Under the pieces are notes generated by a model. The model saw only the letters and a program-made list of their open reading frames with translations. It was not told the origin of the DNA and made no database searches. A stretch of DNA of 64,000 nt from Gimesia aquarii (GTDB taxonomy: Bacteria; Planctomycetota; Planctomycetia; Planctomycetales; Planctomycetaceae). Below are positions 25,566 to 32,847 of the stretch, one piece after another (the first letter of the stretch is position 1; every line of letters begins with the position of its first letter). The stretch spans positions 6,387,300 to 6,451,299 of the forward strand of contig NZ_CP037920.1 of assembly GCF_007748195.1 (NCBI RefSeq), read 5' to 3'. The position numbers and the translations under genes were made by a program.

Positions 25566-26657
25566 TTATGTTGTATTCAGAGGTAATTCACGGCTTTCAA
25601 TTTCCAATAGTCGCTTCTTTCGCCAGAGCCCGCCGCCGTAACCTGTCAGCTTTCCGTCCGCACCGATCACACGGTGACAAGGAATCAGAATTGAAATGCG
25701 GTTATCGCCGTTGGCGCGGGCGACGGCACGTACTGCCGCTGGTTGGCCAATATTTTTAGCCTGCTCTGCATAGGAACGGGTTGTTCCGAACGGAATGGTT
25801 TGCAAAGCGGCCCAGACTTTTTGTTGAAACTCGGTTCCGGGCGTAATCAACGGGATATCAAAGTCAGTTCGCTTACCTGCAAAATAGGCCTGTAACTCCG
25901 CATCGAGTTGCGCAAAGAACGGACTATCTCCTGGCAGCGTTTTTGCATTCATGCGTTTGTGCAAACGATTGAGTTGGGTTTCCAGCATCGGACGGTCGGC
26001 GAATTCGAGCAAGCAGATCCCCTGCTCCGTCGCACCCGCTAACATCGGGCCAAGTGGCGTCAGTATCCTGGTGATGGCAATCACCTCTTGCCCGTTGGTC
26101 TTTGCTGGCGCGCTGCCGATGGTTTTCTTGAAGCCATCACCGAAGCCACTCAGCGATTCATAACCACTCTGAAAGGCGGCATCTGTGACTGATGTTTTGT
26201 GGCGAATTTGGCCAAAGGCCTGGTTGATCCGTCGCATTCTTAAGTAGGATGTGAAAGTCATGCCATGTAATTTCTGGAACCAACGACGAACACGTACGGG
26301 ATCAAGTCCCCGTTGCCTCAAATCTTCAGCCTGCAAGCGAATAGTGGCATCCTGTTCGACTTCTTCCAGTAAAGGTTGCAGCCATTCGGGTGTGGCGCCT
26401 AAATCGATCATAGGATGACAGATCTTGCAGGCACGATAGCCGCTGGCGATTGCCGACTTCGCATCGGGAAAGTACTCGACGTTCTCCGGTTTGGGTTTGC
26501 GGGCCGTACAAGAGGGTCGACAAAAAATTCCCGTTGTACGAATCGCTGCAACGAAAACACCTTCGAAGCTGGTATCTCTGCGACTGAGCGCATCGTACAT
26601 CGTTTCCCGGTCGGGAAGTGTGGCTGTGTCATTCATGTTTGTGTCTGTATTATCCAT
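25566..26657 (-). CDS. ada: Ada: bifunctional methylphosphotriester/O6-methylguanine methyltransferase and regulator
   Basis: Repairs alkylated DNA by suicidal methyl transfer and activates the adaptive response. With the ATG at 26657 the protein is 363 residues, close to E. coli Ada (354). The N-terminal zinc site has C46, C50, C77 and C80 (FCRPSC ... CKIC); C46 corresponds to the methyl-accepting cysteine. An AraC-type DNA-binding region follows (RVRRWFQKLHGMTFTSYLRM). The C-terminal domain has the active-site PCHRVIG with YGGGLWRKKRLL. The frame stays open to 27242, but that stretch overlaps the opposite-strand DinB-like gene and has no Ada homology. The divergent DinB-like neighbour may share its damage response. 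Confidence 0.93.
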   Translation of the reverse strand: MDNTDTNMNDTATLPDRETMYDALSRRDTSFEGVFVAAIRTTGIFCRPSCTARKPKPENVEYFPDAKSAIASGYRACKICHPMIDLGATPEWLQPLLEEVEQDATIRLQAEDLRQRGLDPVRVRRWFQKLHGMTFTSYLRMRRINQAFGQIRHKTSVTDAAFQSGYESLSGFGDGFKKTIGSAPAKTNGQEVIAITRILTPLGPMLAGATEQGICLLEFADRPMLETQLNRLHKRMNAKTLPGDSPFFAQLDAELQAYFAGKRTDFDIPLITPGTEFQQKVWAALQTIPFGTTRSYAEQAKNIGQPAAVRAVARANGDNRISILIPCHRVIGADGKLTGYGGGLWRKKRLLEIESRELPLNTT

Positions 26658-26835
26658 TTTATAGAACCCGAGTTTTTGAAGCCAAAATACCATCTCCAAA
26701 AATAATACCAGTTCCACAACCAGCGGCAACCGCGAAATGGACAAGGAATTTTCCGAGCACCCATTACCTGGAAAATTAGATTCCGGAGCCCTAAAATGAG
26801 CTACTAGAAATATCATACTAAAATGAGGAACTGAA

Positions 26836-27381
26836 ATGGATACCACAGGCCAATTTATGTCATCGATACTCAACGTATTCGAAACCCACAAACGAATGAC
26901 GGAGCGAGCCGTTGAACAAGTTCCCGATGAGAAACTCCATACCGCCCTCGATGAGAACACGAACTCTATTGCCGTGATCATGAAGCACGTTGCAGGAAAC
27001 CTGATCTCACGCTGGACCGATTTTCTGACAACCGATGGCGAGAAGTCGTGGAGGAATCGAGACGATGAGTTTGTAGACTCGTTTAAGAGCCGCGCGGAAC
27101 TCATGGCATACTGGGACCGTGGCTGGTCGTGTGTTTTGGAAGCCCTCAAGAGTTTGACGGCAGAAGATCTTGAAAAATCAGTCTCAATCCGCGGAGAAGC
27201 ACACACCGTACCGCTGGCAATTGAGCGCTCACTCGGACACACCTGTTACCACGTAGGTCAAATCGTGCAAGTCGCCCGCATCCAGGCGGGGGATAAATGG
27301 AACACACTGACCATTCCAAGAGGTGAATCTGAACAATTCAATAAAGCGAACTGGGGAGAGATTGGGAAGTCGCATTCGTAA
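26836..27381 (+). CDS. DinB-like protein, DUF1572 family
   Basis: A 181-residue four-helix-bundle protein of the DinB/YfiT superfamily. The start has a GAGGAA site. Candidate metal-binding histidines are in AVIMKHVAGNL and in HTCYHVGQIVQVARI, the family's usual triad positions; LISRWTDFLTTDGEKSWRNR is a DUF1572 hallmark. Superfamily members include thiol-dependent S-transferases that use bacillithiol or mycothiol. Its neighbour on the other strand is ada; detoxification or damage response is a plausible theme but not shown. It is the last typical chromosomal gene before the A+T-rich island. Confidence 0.85.
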   Translation: MDTTGQFMSSILNVFETHKRMTERAVEQVPDEKLHTALDENTNSIAVIMKHVAGNLISRWTDFLTTDGEKSWRNRDDEFVDSFKSRAELMAYWDRGWSCVLEALKSLTAEDLEKSVSIRGEAHTVPLAIERSLGHTCYHVGQIVQVARIQAGDKWNTLTIPRGESEQFNKANWGEIGKSHS

Positions 27382-27555
27382 GTTATAGATTCTATAGTAA
27401 TTGACTAGAAACATACGCGATTTTTAGCGGCACTCCTTTTGAAAAGAGCTAGAAATTAAAATCTATTCAGATCTGTTAATTGGGAATGATAATTGTAAAA
27501 TTTAATTGGCTCCAGTCTGATCTTCATCAATTATATTAATCACATTGTCCAAAGG

Positions 27556-27583
27556 TCGACCAATTCAAGAAAAACTGTATACT
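27556..27583 (+). promoter_or_regulatory. Putative promoter of the methylase-phosphoesterase-ATPase operon
   Basis: TCGACC (27556-27561, 4 of 6 to TTGACA) and TATACT (27578-27583, 5 of 6 to TATAAT) are 16 bases apart in an A+T-rich region. Transcription would start about 58 bases before the methylase ATG. Confidence 0.35.
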
Positions 27584-27647
27584 AAAACATACATCTGTTA
27601 ATTTCAGTTTCCAACTTCTAATCTCATTCTAATCTCAAAAACAGTAT

Positions 27648-28496
27648 ATGACTGTCAATCAATCAAATCACGTTGAATCGTTTCTTCGTTGGGCTGGCAG
27701 CAAACGGCAGTTAATCCCTCACTTAGCACAAGCTGCCCCTCCCCATTTCGAAAGATATGTCGAACCTTTCGCTGGTTCTGCTTGTTTCTTTTTCTATTTA
27801 CGTCCTAAGAAAGCAGTACTCAGTGATTTCAATGAGCATTTGATTCAATCGTATTTAGCAGTCAAGAAGCATCCGATAAAGTTGGCCCGATCTCTTACAT
27901 TGTTTGGCACTCAAGTAGAAGATTATTATGAAATTCGTAGAATCTTTGGAGATTCTTCTGTGATGTTAGAACGAGCAGCACAATTCATATATTTGAATTC
28001 ATACTGCTTTAATGGTGTCTACAGAACAAATCTTCGCGGGAAGTTCAATGTACCGCGTGGCTCAAAGACCAGAGGAGTGCCAAATGAAACCAATCTTCGG
28101 CGCTGTTCGATAGTATTGAGAAATGCCAACGTCTATTGCCAAGATTACAAGAAGACCTTGCGTAGTTGCACAGACACTGATTTTATTTATCTTGATCCGC
28201 CATATACTAAGCTAGGAGCAAGGTACCGAGGGGAATACGGTGTAGGTAGCTTTACATCACAAGATGAGCAAGATCTAGTATCTGAACTACGAAAACTTGA
28301 TCAAATCGGATCGCATTTCTTATTATCATATCGCGCCTCAGCTGCCTTTATTCGATTACTTGATCCAAACTGGCACATTCAACGTATTAGAGTTAGGCGA
28401 AATGTTGCAGGATTTTCAGATGCACGTCGAACTGCAATAGAGATCCTCGTGCGTAACTATGATAGTTGCGAATCGTTGAAGAGGACGAACTTGTGA
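27648..28496 (+). CDS. DNA adenine methylase (Dam/D12 class)
   Basis: A 282-residue N6-adenine methyltransferase of the Dam/DpnM group. Motifs are FLRWAGSKRQLIPHL (residues 12-26), the SAM-binding VEPFAGSACFFF (38-49), the FNGVYRTNLRGKFNVP block (121-136) and the catalytic DPPY (183-186). Late features SYRAS and NVAGFSDARRTAIEILVRN are typical of the C-terminus. It modifies DNA, probably at a GATC-like site, but the target is not readable. The TGA overlaps the next gene's GTG (GTGA), so it leads a four-gene coupled operon. No restriction endonuclease is encoded nearby, and composition is clearly more A+T-rich than in flanking genes, suggesting horizontal acquisition. Confidence 0.9.
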   Translation: MTVNQSNHVESFLRWAGSKRQLIPHLAQAAPPHFERYVEPFAGSACFFFYLRPKKAVLSDFNEHLIQSYLAVKKHPIKLARSLTLFGTQVEDYYEIRRIFGDSSVMLERAAQFIYLNSYCFNGVYRTNLRGKFNVPRGSKTRGVPNETNLRRCSIVLRNANVYCQDYKKTLRSCTDTDFIYLDPPYTKLGARYRGEYGVGSFTSQDEQDLVSELRKLDQIGSHFLLSYRASAAFIRLLDPNWHIQRIRVRRNVAGFSDARRTAIEILVRNYDSCESLKRTNL

Positions 28497-28624
28497 TTCG
28501 AATTGCAATAGTAAGTGATCTTCATGCATATGATTCAAAAAGCTGGACCAAAGATGGTGCTCCTAGTCATTTCGACATTACAGAGGGAAGAGCCGAACAA
28601 CAATGCCCGATGAAGTCAATGTAG
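28493..28624 (+). pseudogene. N-terminal part of metallophosphoesterase, cut by in-frame amber
   Basis: A GTG at 28493, overlapping the methylase stop as GTGA, opens MIRIAIVSDLHAYDSK. This contains D8 and H10 of the first metal motif (D-x-H) of calcineurin-like phosphoesterases. The frame then meets TAG at 28622-28624 (codon 44). Immediately after that codon the same frame continues with the rest of the enzyme, so a single base change, not a shift, separates the two parts. Either the gene is a recent pseudogene, the sequence has an error, or the amber is read through. Confidence 0.75.
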
Positions 28625-28627
28625 ACG

Positions 28628-29671
28628 TTGATTTCAAACGAAAACCTAGCAGCAGACTTCCTAATGTGCCCCGGTGATCTCTGCAACAATGCCTGTAAAG
28701 TGTCACTCCCGGTAGCTTGGAAAGCAGTAAACCAAGTTGGAAACGCGTTGGGTGTACAACAAATTCTCGCAACAGTTGGAAATCACGATGTAGACTCAAG
28801 GAGGCAACATAATACTTATGATCCTATCGAAGAGTTGAAAAAACTTTCTCCTGAATTTCCTGTAGTTGATCGTCAGTTGAGAAATCAATTTTGGAGCGAA
28901 CACTTTTTAGTTTATACAGATGAAATATTTAGGTGTTTGGTAATCAATAGCAGCGCATATCATTCGAGCACGGAAGAGATCCAACATGGTCGAATTGCTG
29001 AAAGCACTCTAAAATTAGTGAAAGAGTCGCTTGATCAAGATGATTTTCTTCTGAATATCATGCTTTGTCACCATAATCCACACAAACACAGTGAGATCCA
29101 GTTAGGTGAACATGACGAGATCAAGGGCGGACAACTACTATTGGATTTAATTGGAGAACCACAGCGACAGGATTGGCTTGTGATTCATGGACACAAACAT
29201 CATCCCAAAATTACATATGCCTCAGGTGGAAACTCATCCCCTATCGTGTTTTCAGCAGGAAGTAGTGCTTCAACATTATATCCAGAATTGATAAATGCGA
29301 CAGGTAACCAGTTTTACATTTTGGAGTTTGATGAAGAGTTAATCAAAAATCATGGCTTAATAGGCCGGTTTCGGTCTTGGGATTGGCATCCTGGATTTGG
29401 TTGGCAGGCAGCAGATAACATGAAGGGCTTACCTGCATTCGGAGGATTTGGTCATCGAGAAAACGCTGTACTATTAGCTCGTCGCATAGAAGAGAACTTG
29501 TCAAATTCGAATAACAAGCATCTCATGAGTGAGAAGGTTTACGATTCTTTTCCGGAACTCTACTATCTCACACCAAATGATCTTCTCTCACTAGAACGAG
29601 CCTTGGAAAGTCTATCGGTCGTTGTCGCGTTCTCTGATGAAGGCTTAATACATGAGGTTTGTAAAGTATGA
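28628..29671 (+). CDS. Calcineurin-like metallophosphoesterase, body downstream of amber codon
   Basis: This 347-residue frame can start at TTG 28628, 3 bases past the amber. It carries the remaining phosphoesterase motifs: CPGDLCNN (residues 14-21), TVGNHDVDS (49-57), the histidine pair in LCHHNPHKH (about 147-154) and IHGHKHHP (186-193). Without the upstream DLH motif it lacks two metal ligands and is probably inactive if made alone. Family members hydrolyse phosphodiesters, including nucleic acids and cyclic nucleotides. The stop overlaps the ATPase start as ATGA. The long, well preserved frame argues that the amber is recent. Confidence 0.75.
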   Translation: MISNENLAADFLMCPGDLCNNACKVSLPVAWKAVNQVGNALGVQQILATVGNHDVDSRRQHNTYDPIEELKKLSPEFPVVDRQLRNQFWSEHFLVYTDEIFRCLVINSSAYHSSTEEIQHGRIAESTLKLVKESLDQDDFLLNIMLCHHNPHKHSEIQLGEHDEIKGGQLLLDLIGEPQRQDWLVIHGHKHHPKITYASGGNSSPIVFSAGSSASTLYPELINATGNQFYILEFDEELIKNHGLIGRFRSWDWHPGFGWQAADNMKGLPAFGGFGHRENAVLLARRIEENLSNSNNKHLMSEKVYDSFPELYYLTPNDLLSLERALESLSVVVAFSDEGLIHEVCKV

Positions 29672-31584
29672 GTCAGCAATTGGACAAATATTTATTGTAT
29701 AGTTCATTCAATGCACGGGCATTGAACCCAGTCGAAGTCGCCAAAACGTTCATTCCACCGGAAGAGTTCCTTCGACTAGCGAATAATTCTCACACATTCG
29801 TCGTAGGACCACGTGGTAGCGGCAAAACAACTTTATTAAAGATGCTTCAACAACCTGCTCTTGAATCATGGAACCATGAAGATGCTGAAACTACTCGAAA
29901 AAATATTGGTTTCACAGGGGTATTTGTACCAACTGACGTCACTCTTACCAGTCAACTAGAGTCTGCAGTTCAAGGATTGGCAGAAGGACCAAGTATTATT
30001 CGGGCTGCGTATTCCATACATGTATTGCGTGCCGTCATGTCTGCGATTGAATATCGATGTGGTCGTTTTAATACTGAAATTATCCAACCATTCAATCGTA
30101 TAGAGATGACTCAGAAAATGGAGCATGAGTTGATAGAAGAGGTTTCTTATGGATTGAAACGAAAACCTAGAACACCTTCATTTGCTTCATTAAAAACTGA
30201 TCTAACTGCTTGGCTTTCAGAAGTATTTGAGTTTGCAGGACAGCAAAGACTCTTAGGACTTGAAAAACAAAGAGAGTCACTAGCGAATAGTGGACTCCTT
30301 CGATTGGACTTTACGAGATCTGCTTGCATAGCTATTGATGCATTTGAAAGCGTGACAGGCATTCAAGGGGAAAGATGGGCATTGTTGTGTGATGAACTAG
30401 AGTTAGCTCCTTCTATTATTGTAAATGACTTACTTAGGCTTGTGCGAAGCACAGATCAACGACTGTTATTTAAACTCTCATTAAGCCCCTATGTTGCAGG
30501 GGAATCGGAGTTAAGCAACGTGTTTGGCAGTGTCAAAAACACAAATCAACTCCACACTAATAAAGTAACTATTGAAAAATCAGCGCCACCCCAAGAACAT
30601 GAAGATTATGATACAATTCGGCTATGGTATCCGAACAAACAAGATGGCAGCAGATTTGCACGACGTCTTGCAGAATCCGTTATTGCCAACAATGGTATTC
30701 AAGATCAGAGTGTAGATGATATTCTAGGACGATCAGTATTCGATCCACCTGAAACTTCCCATCGTAGATCGGCATCTGCGTATGCACCTGGATCACCCCG
30801 CAATAAACGTATGAAACGATTGGCTGAAATCGACGAGAGCTTCAGAGAATATTTGCTAAGAAAATCGATTAATCTGGATTCCCCAATCATAGATGACGAT
30901 ATGCGTGCGAAAACACTTCGAAAAATAAATGCGATTGTCATTGTTCGAGAGGCCTTTCGAAAGCAGGATAGTGCAAGAAGCCGAAAGAATCCAACAGTAT
31001 ATGCAGGAGCTTCAGCATTTTTTGCGATTTGCGAGTCAAATCCAAGGTTTCTTATTGGAATGTTGAATCAACTACTGGGAAGCAAAGTAAAAACTGGTTC
31101 TCTAGTACGAGTCGAGGCTAGCGAACAGGCTGCAGTATATTCATCTGCAACAGCCAGATTTCGAGCTTATCTACGAACGATTCCCTCTCCTTCCATAGGA
31201 ACTAGGCCTTCCAGAGGATTGTTATCACTTATTGAACAGATCGGTAAATACTTTCATCAAGAAATTGTCGTTGGTGAATTCGACGATGATGCTGATGGAA
31301 GTTTTAAAGTAGACTCCAATGCTGATGCCGAACTGTGTAATGCTTTGCAGCGAGCTATTAATACTGGTGCAATCATCTGGGTTCCAGAGAAATCCGACGA
31401 AACTCTTTTGACTACAGTTCGTGGCAAAAGATTTAGAATGTCATATCTTCTCGCTCCATATTTTCAGTTACCACTTCACTTAGGACGGTCTGTCTCACTC
31501 GGTCGGATTCTTGGACTTACAAAATTGAACGAAACTCAAAGCGAACCTACTCTCTTTGATTCACTCGATGAGGAATCAATATGA
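29668..31584 (+). CDS. ORC/CDC6-like P-loop ATPase
   Basis: A 638-residue ATPase. The N-terminus FNARALNPVEVAKTFIPPEE leads to Walker A GPRGSGKT (47-54) and a following TGVFVPTDVT strand (83-92). Walker B is WALLCDELEL (237-246) with D242/E243. A SLSPYVAG sensor-like strand lies about 30 residues later. The last 130 residues look like a winged-helix region (RPSRGLLSLIEQIGKYFHQE). This pattern fits the ORC-CDC6-type AAA ATPases found in accessory islands, though the name is by recall of the pattern only. It overlaps both neighbours by 4 bases. It would sense DNA or a partner protein and gate the effector; that role is inferred. Confidence 0.8.
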   Translation: MSQQLDKYLLYSSFNARALNPVEVAKTFIPPEEFLRLANNSHTFVVGPRGSGKTTLLKMLQQPALESWNHEDAETTRKNIGFTGVFVPTDVTLTSQLESAVQGLAEGPSIIRAAYSIHVLRAVMSAIEYRCGRFNTEIIQPFNRIEMTQKMEHELIEEVSYGLKRKPRTPSFASLKTDLTAWLSEVFEFAGQQRLLGLEKQRESLANSGLLRLDFTRSACIAIDAFESVTGIQGERWALLCDELELAPSIIVNDLLRLVRSTDQRLLFKLSLSPYVAGESELSNVFGSVKNTNQLHTNKVTIEKSAPPQEHEDYDTIRLWYPNKQDGSRFARRLAESVIANNGIQDQSVDDILGRSVFDPPETSHRRSASAYAPGSPRNKRMKRLAEIDESFREYLLRKSINLDSPIIDDDMRAKTLRKINAIVIVREAFRKQDSARSRKNPTVYAGASAFFAICESNPRFLIGMLNQLLGSKVKTGSLVRVEASEQAAVYSSATARFRAYLRTIPSPSIGTRPSRGLLSLIEQIGKYFHQEIVVGEFDDDADGSFKVDSNADAELCNALQRAINTGAIIWVPEKSDETLLTTVRGKRFRMSYLLAPYFQLPLHLGRSVSLGRILGLTKLNETQSEPTLFDSLDEESI

Positions 31585-32603
31585 AAGTTATCTCCTCAGT
31601 TACTTCATGGAACAAGGACATAAATCATCAGTATGATGTAATGTTATGTGCCCTTGGTTATGAAAGCCGTTCGACTAATGTGGCTGCGATGCTTGTCAAT
31701 CAAACTAAACATCGACTAGCGATTGGTTTTGATTATCACCATACAGGATCTCTATCAGCGAATGCTGAGTGGTTCAGTAATAATGGTTTTTTTTCGTTCA
31801 ATAATGAAGAACCATACTTTGCAACGGACCAAGAATTTAGCGACAAGCTAATTTCAATGATTGAGTCGAGAGTTAAAAAAGATGGAGAATCACGATTTGC
31901 TGTGGATATTTCTAGCTTCTCCACAATTCGGCTCGCATCGGTTTTGGACGTATTCTGGTCTTTGGCATCACGTGAAAATAATATAGTAGTTGATTTCTTA
32001 TATTCTCCCGGCAAAGAGTACAAGGTTGAAAAAAATGTAGAACAGATTGAGTTCGCTGGGCCTGTCAATCGGAAATACGCTGGATGGTCATCCCAACCCG
32101 AAACCCCTGTTGTTGCTATTTTTGGACTAGGACTTGAATACGATTGTTCGATTGGTGCGTTTGAATACTTGAATCCTGGTCTTACATATACTTTCTCGAC
32201 TCACGGTGCAAAAAGCAAATTGGATGAGAAGATTACATTTGTGAATTCTAAGAATGACTTTGATGTCAACACTGACAATGAGTTTGAGATGCAATTAATC
32301 GAAGCGAATAAGCAACTACTTCCATTAGTGCCACCAGAAATGAGATTCGATTTTGACGTCGCTCGCCCCCTTGACTGCTACACGAAAGTGCGATCAGTTG
32401 CTATCGGTGCAATGCGGTATGGCAGAACTGTTTTCGTACCTCTAGGACCGAAGATATTCGCACTCACTACACTTCTAGTCGCCAACGAATTTTGTCCTGA
32501 AATCGCAGTGTGGCGAATTAGTACTGGACGATCAGCAAAACCAACTGACGTTTTAGCCAGGGGTGATGTGGTAGGTCTTCGGGTTAAATGGAGATCAGTC
32601 TAA
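31581..32603 (+). CDS. Unrecognised protein, possible effector or sensor of the operon
   Basis: A 340-residue soluble protein whose family I cannot name. It appears to have two related Rossmann-like halves. Half 1 has YDVMLCALGYESRS (18-31), FAVDISSFSTIRLASVLDVF (106-125) and VVDFLYSPGKEY (136-147). Half 2 has VVAIFGLGLEYDCS (177-190), FDFDVARPLDCYTKVRSVAI (256-275), TVFVPLGPKIFALTTLLVA (283-301) and IAVWRIS (308-314). No nuclease, protease or membrane motif stands out. It is the last gene of the coupled operon, overlapping the ATPase by ATGA. Its conserved-looking YESR and DISS motifs suggest a nucleotide- or ligand-binding site. Confidence 0.75.
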   Translation: MKVISSVTSWNKDINHQYDVMLCALGYESRSTNVAAMLVNQTKHRLAIGFDYHHTGSLSANAEWFSNNGFFSFNNEEPYFATDQEFSDKLISMIESRVKKDGESRFAVDISSFSTIRLASVLDVFWSLASRENNIVVDFLYSPGKEYKVEKNVEQIEFAGPVNRKYAGWSSQPETPVVAIFGLGLEYDCSIGAFEYLNPGLTYTFSTHGAKSKLDEKITFVNSKNDFDVNTDNEFEMQLIEANKQLLPLVPPEMRFDFDVARPLDCYTKVRSVAIGAMRYGRTVFVPLGPKIFALTTLLVANEFCPEIAVWRISTGRSAKPTDVLARGDVVGLRVKWRSV

Positions 32604-32817
32604 ATTCGCTTACAAGCTTCTCTCGCAAGATCTTAAACCTTTCCTTGAAATGCTCTAGTTCTTCCTAGTTTGGAATATGATATTATTATTTCAATCTCCT
32701 AGGATTTTGCTTTAATTCATTTTCTGACTTTTTATAGGCGACAATCGACATGTTTCTCAAATTAGTGTTTCAAAATCGTTCACTTAGTTATACATAACAT
32801 CCTATCCAAACACCGCA

Positions 32818-32847
32818 CAAAAAAAAGAGAGAACGACGTTCGTTCTC
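32818..32847 (-). terminator. Terminator downstream of sugar isomerase gene (minus strand)
   Basis: Read on the minus strand, GAGAACGA-ACG-TCGTTCTC forms a perfect 8-bp stem (32829-32847) and is followed by TCTTTTTTTT. It ends the transcript of the isomerase gene and marks the right edge of the A+T-rich island. Confidence 0.85.

Follow-up and report, generated by a model that had tools for sequence, protein, structure and literature searches.

A putative methylation-gated immune operon with a phosphoesterase, an ORC/CDC6-like ATPase and a CARF6 protein, present in Gimesia aquarii and in distant bacteria

Bacteriophage exclusion (BREX) systems are described (PMC12839542) as including an adenine methyltransferase and an ORC/Cdc6-type AAA+ ATPase. 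The four-gene operon examined here lies in a 64,000-nucleotide stretch of the Gimesia aquarii genome (contig NZ_CP037920.1, positions 6,387,300 to 6,451,299 of the forward strand; the window) and predicts a Dam-family methylase, a calcineurin-type phosphoesterase, an ORC/CDC6-like ATPase and a CARF6-family protein. The initial annotation, made from the DNA letters, knew of no named defence system with this set. That holds for the set as a whole but not for its parts, which already have names in Pfam (ORC-CDC6-like, wHTH-Calcineurin_assc, PRTase-CE) and PADLOC (CARF6), so that earlier in silico notice is likely. Burroughs and Aravind 2020 (J Bacteriol) and Makarova 2020 (NAR, CARF classification) are probably the sources of these names; no description of the operon or experiment on it was among the literature matches listed. 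What is added here is a test of methylation, the spread of the operon, the scarcity of known cyclases and the broken state of the window copy. The operon is on balance probably a horizontally mobile, methylation-gated immune unit, in which the phosphoesterase is the putative effector and CARF6 the putative nucleotide-sensing regulator, and for which we infer defence itself.

The four window frames are co-directional and overlap at GTGA, ATGA and ATGA, in that order. Their positions and overlaps, first taken as the mark of a single unit, were confirmed. The three families originally named (Dam, ORC/CDC6-like ATPase, calcineurin-type phosphoesterase) stand. The Dam, ATPase and CARF6 frames are open, but the phosphoesterase frame is interrupted by an in-frame stop. 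The features are as follows.

27648..28496, forward strand: Dam-family (D12) N6-adenine DNA methyltransferase, intact, 282 amino acids (aa), assigned by profiles; GATC is the predicted target
28493..29671, forward strand: calcineurin-type phosphoesterase with a C-terminal winged helix-turn-helix (wHTH; PF24408), frame broken by a TAG, downstream part open from 28625
28622..28624, forward strand: in-frame TAG downstream of the SDLH metal motif, which is thereby cut off from the rest of the metal-binding motifs (frame reading, alignment)
29668..31584, forward strand: ORC-CDC6-like P-loop ATPase, intact, 638 aa, Walker A GPRGSGKT, Walker B DELE (PF24389, alignment, motifs)
31581..32603, forward strand: CARF6-family protein, intact, 340 aa, two Rossmann-like units in the model (PADLOC PDLC01915, model, Foldseek)
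27380..32821, no strand: inserted segment, flanked by the DUF1572/DinB gene on one side and by the isomerase gene (its 3′ side) on the other (blastn alignment breaks; GC content 0.404)

A non-exhaustive scan of one genome per species in 84,980 species, with two peptide patterns derived from an alignment of the ATPase, recovered 76 loci, of which 71 had an E value of 1e-12 or lower. The set of 75 loci used below consists of these, the window and four plasmids, less L066 (same record as L033) and L108-L112 (distant ATPases), and, with the ATPase as bait, it favours near kin of that ATPase. The order phosphoesterase–ATPase–CARF6 is found in every uncut locus. The phosphoesterase is present in 73 of the 75 loci and CARF6 in 72, and all five misses fall at contig ends, which cut L067, L068, L080 and L102 upstream and L100, L105 and L106 downstream. 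A tblastn search with the ATPase found five plasmids, with the CARF6 protein on the same five; of the four plasmid regions opened, three have the full Dam-phosphoesterase-ATPase-CARF6 arrangement and one lacks Dam. Carriers belong, by record title, to Pseudomonadota, Bacteroidota, Actinomycetota, Acidobacteriota, Verrucomicrobiota, Gemmatimonadota, Planctomycetota and SAR324 (for L044 the tree-tool label Cyanobacteriota contradicts the record title and was set aside). Pairwise distances of the four proteins are correlated over 50 loci, with Mantel r 0.82-0.90 and none of 999 permutations as high. As near-copies, L069 was omitted from alignment A4, and L069 and L067 from A5. The fixed order and the correlated distances rule out chance adjacency. 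The operon is one conserved, horizontally spread unit, and the expectation that its families would co-occur elsewhere was borne out by the same order far beyond the source genome.

The window methylase matches PF02086 (4e-42) and TIGR00571 (5e-62), scoring 210 bits against the latter where the curated cut-off is 114.85, and is the sole TIGR00571-family match in its genome. The nearest solved sequences are DpnM (3e-38) and E. coli Dam (6e-31), suggesting specificity for GATC.

A Dam gene lies directly upstream in 54 of the 75 loci. Three of these are partial, being cut by a contig end (L038), interrupted by a TAG (L106) or reduced to a remnant (L100). Of the 21 loci without an upstream Dam, 4 are contig-cut and 17 are uncut. 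Among the uncut loci, a different D12-class methyltransferase occupies the Dam slot in L041, L042 and L045, Dam is directly downstream of CARF6 in L073 and L076 (on the opposite strand in L076), and L035 is a plasmid locus without Dam whose host chromosome lay outside the genome search. In each of the other 11, the genome holds one or more Dam genes elsewhere that exceed the curated cut-off; in L095 and L103 a Dam is less than 5 kb from the operon. Hence all 16 uncut searchable loci without an upstream Dam have a D12 methyltransferase in cis or in trans (3 in the slot, 2 downstream and 11 elsewhere or nearby).

Of the 49 genomes that have a cis Dam, 5 hold a further Dam over the cut-off (L038, L053, L059, L084 and L105; the second Dam of L053 is borderline, the cis copy of L038 is itself cut by the contig end, and L100 and L106 were left out of the 49). 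The difference between 11/11 and 5/49 gives p=1.3e-8 (Fisher) for genomes that are not independent. The base rate of Dam is 8 in 98 relatives of the window genome (over the cut-off) and 3 in 14 named controls. Within the Gammaproteobacteria, as we take them to be from the record title or from the class of the genus, Dam is present elsewhere in the genome in 8/8 cases without a cis Dam and in 0/7 with one. The state without cis Dam requires six changes on the ATPase tree, five of them forced by well-supported branches. Two further copies are decaying. In L106 (7911-8783), the TAG-interrupted cis Dam is accompanied by a second Dam in the genome. In L100 (782-3008), the Dam remnant adjoins what by eye is an insertion sequence-like transposase, most of the phosphoesterase is also lost, and no other Dam was found in the genome. 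Among the upstream-cut loci, the L067 and L102 genomes have a Dam over the cut-off. Adenine methylation thus seems to be required in cis or in trans, as for a self mark. These observations, with the cis/trans substitution and the two broken cis Dams among them, are as expected if an active core depends on adenine-marked host DNA, whichever gene supplies the mark. The same substitution lends support to the earlier idea of a methylase-based self/non-self logic.

Two of the loci without an upstream Dam have further genes close by. The Dam 3 kb upstream of the operon in L095 (3644-5822) adjoins a possible type II restriction enzyme gene (pooled hits REase_II, DUF6997). In the Dam-less Pseudoalteromonas plasmid L035 (3886-5730), a 614-aa gene without a Pfam match lies upstream of the phosphoesterase, and the end of its product looks by eye like a PD-(D/E)xK nuclease.

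The ATPase matches PF24389 at 1.4e-103 (348 bits against a cut-off of 27) over profile positions 3-571 of 571. Walker A is present in 74/74 ATPases and the strict Walker B pattern in 71/74. No ATPase match was found among the phage records searched, and blastn with a Vibrio ATPase gene gave none in the E. coli genomes. Distant PF24389 members in the phylum of the window occur with a PRTase-CE partner (L003, L004) or in a phosphoesterase fusion (L012). A small open reading frame (ORF) upstream of the PRTase-CE/ORC/CARF6-like set of L004 (4287-4763) is MazG/dUTPase-like by eye, again pointing to nucleotides.

Three phosphoesterase relatives match Metallophos (PF00149), and wHTH-Calcineurin_assc (PF24408) is over the cut-off in the window piece and in two of these three relatives, the third falling below it. 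The metal-binding GD, GNHD, H and GHxH motifs are invariant across 66 aligned phosphoesterases. The family profile ranks Lmo2642 (7e-18) and Rv0805 (6e-10) far ahead of SbcD/Mre11 (3e-4). Foldseek with a model of the L039 phosphoesterase (predicted local distance difference test, pLDDT, 93.6) returned an integrative model of YydD-YydB as first hit and ranked Rv0805, Lmo2642, GpdQ and SMPDL3A above Mre11. In profile and predicted fold the enzyme therefore resembles class III cyclic-nucleotide phosphodiesterases more closely than Mre11, and the earlier label of nuclease-like is not the most apt.

The fourth protein, which the initial annotation could not place, matches the PADLOC CARF6 profiles PDLC01915 (1.3e-47) and PDLC01918 (8e-41), and has no match in Pfam or NCBIfam. 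Its model (pLDDT 89; predicted template modelling score, pTM, 0.90) has two Rossmann-like alpha/beta units and no visible fused effector domain. Compared by sequence for a tandem origin, the two halves give only a weak match over 23 columns (probability 15.8), so that the two-unit reading rests on the model. Foldseek with the model found Csm6, Cam1, Can2 and Cap5 with probabilities of 0.90-1.00 and query TM-scores of only 0.25-0.40.

Known makers of cyclic oligonucleotides were sought in 48 genomes, made up of 47 carriers and the window genome. The Cas10 palm family was over its cut-off in 10, with a single strong match of 82 bits and nine at 28-35 bits. E. coli also gives matches to this family, and the nine weak matches are read as GGDEF-type cross-matches. 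CD-NTase (SMODS) was over the cut-off in 6 of the 48, neither family was matched in the window genome, and none of the four operon proteins matched CD-NTase. Known makers are thus mostly missing from carriers, and either the CARF6 ligand is something else, or it is made by the operon, or CARF6 works ligand-free. The profile match and the Foldseek matches to Csm6, Cam1, Can2 and Cap5 would fit a type III CRISPR or cyclic-oligonucleotide-based antiphage signalling (CBASS) accessory, answering cyclic oligonucleotides from a Cas10 or CD-NTase elsewhere in the cell. With Cas10 and CD-NTase this scarce in carriers and missing from the window genome, that role is very improbable and was set aside.

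The window copy itself was acquired. Alignments with congeners (blastn) break on the left at 27379 in 3/3 stretches that hold this flank and on the right at 32805-32822 in 7/7 stretches, and no part of the insert (27380..32821) aligned to any of the 7. The CARF6 protein was absent from all 98 relatives searched with the single sequence, 16 of them congeners. Of these 16, 14 have the flanking isomerase gene (94-100% identity) and 15 the DUF1572 gene (74-95% identity). In one congener (G003) the two genes are 308 bases apart and the operon is missing. In G002, with ~94% DNA identity on both flanks, a 461-aa gene without a Pfam family is at the site, and in G010 a DUF4365 protein gene. The operon therefore sits in a cargo spot filled by different genes in different relatives. 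The operon has a GC content of 0.413, and the rest of the window, insert excluded, has 0.479, with a minimum of 0.454 over 973 overlapping windows of operon length; this bears out the A+T-richer block first noticed by eye. Because the operon is absent from the relatives searched and the site is found both occupied and empty, the operon is a horizontally acquired 5.4-kb insertion, as had been suggested, and the GC content agrees.

In congeners, the spot between the DUF1572/DinB and sugar isomerase genes (window 27380-32821; L153, L155) holds differing single genes. The nearby window ORF 25566-27242 predicts, by eye, an Ada/Ogt-type DNA repair methyltransferase, and its N-terminal extension, which overlaps the DUF1572 gene on the other strand, is probably spurious.

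The full set of phosphoesterase metal motifs is found in one open frame in the family and not in the window copy. Among the 73 loci with a phosphoesterase match, profile coverage fails only in the window copy and in the wrecked operon of L100. The TAG at 28622-28624 may stem from genuine decay or from an error in sequencing. The window copy is probably impaired and, with its effector truncated, probably only methylates. It is rather likely that this cassette is in decay and does nothing at present except methylate GATC, since the N-terminal metal motif is lost through the TAG. The other three frames are open and retain their motifs, though, and an internal start could still yield a partial phosphoesterase. 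This concerns the copy and not the system, and does not conflict with an immune role of the operon.

In such a role, Dam would mark the GATC sites of the host. The ORC/CDC6-like ATPase would survey DNA for unmarked sites, possibly together with the phosphoesterase wHTH, and on foreign or unmarked DNA would switch on the phosphoesterase, which would attack DNA, or the nucleotide pool or a messenger, so that the infected cell or the invader is stopped. CARF6, as a regulator, would sense a nucleotide and either set the threshold of the response or bring it to an end. That the ATPase may sense unmarked DNA is argued by analogy with BREX ATPases, and the families of the phosphoesterase and CARF6 suggest an effector and a nucleotide sensor. 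A more specific form is put forward tentatively: the ATPase would read GATC methylation and raise the alarm via a nucleotide messenger, made by no known immune cyclase, to a double-CARF sensor under class III phosphodiesterase control, with a self mark that can be borrowed from a host Dam.

The main rival, which we think doubtful, is that the operon is in effect a restriction-modification system, with the phosphoesterase acting as a nuclease on unmethylated DNA, loaded by the ORC-like ATPase in an Mre11/SbcD-like logic, and CARF6 as an accessory. It would account for the methyltransferase requirement, the C-terminal wHTH and the presence of Mre11 among the Foldseek matches (2e-7 and weaker). 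However, profile and fold are nearer Lmo2642, Rv0805, GpdQ and SMPDL3A, and a CARF protein at every uncut locus is more than plain restriction-modification would call for. Since Dam is directly upstream in only 54/75 loci and every uncut locus keeps the other three genes, the methylase might also be a passenger or an expression regulator beside a three-gene core indifferent to methylation. This is improbable, as loss of the cis Dam coincides with a Dam elsewhere (11/11 searched), another D12 enzyme or relocation.

Several points weigh against methylation-gated immunity. No Dam was found in the genomes of the upstream-cut loci L068 (a 1.3-Mb bin) and L080, where the upstream genes lie beyond the contig end. 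Trans-Dam genomes are partly clustered (Vibrio, Pseudoalteromonas), so that the 11 genomes amount to roughly six independent cases, and the three alternative D12 enzymes may not be GATC methylators. The CARF6 fold matches are low in TM-score and four spurious transporter hits rank first. We only infer the link between the ATPase and unmethylated DNA. Enrichment of defence genes in the flanks, proposed as a check, is only suggestive and is given little weight: 126 of 158 flank genes (16 of 20 loci; genes called by a longest-ORF rule, slot methyltransferases of L042 and L045 left out) gave 74 PADLOC families at E<=1e-10 against 6 for 122 of 149 genes in control regions, one from each of the same 16 genomes, where the families are redundant in that a single protein may match many, hits are not resolved per protein and one member is the Dam near L095.

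Some neighbouring genes recur. In alphaproteobacterial loci L041 (5635-6450), L045 (13014-15152) and L055 (12827-14971), the genes near the operon include one for a dCTP-deaminase-like protein whose C-terminal part is hydrophobic, joined by those for a MazG-like small protein and a flavin mononucleotide (FMN)-oxidoreductase-like protein in L045 and L055 (names by eye and from pooled Pfam counts); this neighbourhood is possibly another conflict cassette. In L085 (12769-13638) and L092 (12756-13604), from Aliivibrio and Vibrio, the operon is directly beside a thymidylate synthase-like gene (by eye, pooled Pfam count), the side of which is a possible insertion hotspot.

If the proposed immune role is correct, the operon joins self-marking by DNA methylation with CARF-type nucleotide signalling, which are usually separate in bacterial immunity, and gives a role to CARF6 proteins living without Cas10. 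The repeated loss of the methylase in hosts with another Dam is a natural experiment and leads to a sharp, testable prediction (dam+ versus dam- E. coli).

Among known systems, the PRTase-CE/ORC-CDC6-like/CARF6-like sets (PF24390, PF24389; L003, L004) likewise have three tandem genes in which the same ATPase family is followed by a CARF6-like protein, but a phosphoribosyltransferase-like protein replaces the phosphoesterase and no Dam was seen within the stretches of <5 kb read. CARF6 and the phosphoesterase are not known to be BREX parts. The operon resembles BREX (PMC12839542) in pairing an adenine methyltransferase with an ORC/Cdc6-type ATPase, and differs in that its methylase is Dam-type; BREX membership was ruled out as none of the four proteins matched PglZ, BrxC or PglX. 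The methylase is nearest DpnM and Dam, as in the DpnM/Dam branch of type II restriction-modification, but no restriction endonuclease match was found in the operon. The fourth protein is like the type III CRISPR CARF effectors Csm6, Can2 and Cam1 and the CBASS SAVED effector Cap5 in its CARF-like profile and may be like them in its predicted fold; unlike them, its model has no fused effector domain, and most carriers are without a strong Cas10 and without a CD-NTase. The phosphoesterase has its nearest profile, some of its nearest folds and its metal-binding motifs in common with class III cyclic-nucleotide phosphodiesterases and their kin (Rv0805, Lmo2642, GpdQ, SMPDL3A), from which the operon enzyme is set apart by its C-terminal wHTH and its fixed coupling to the ATPase.

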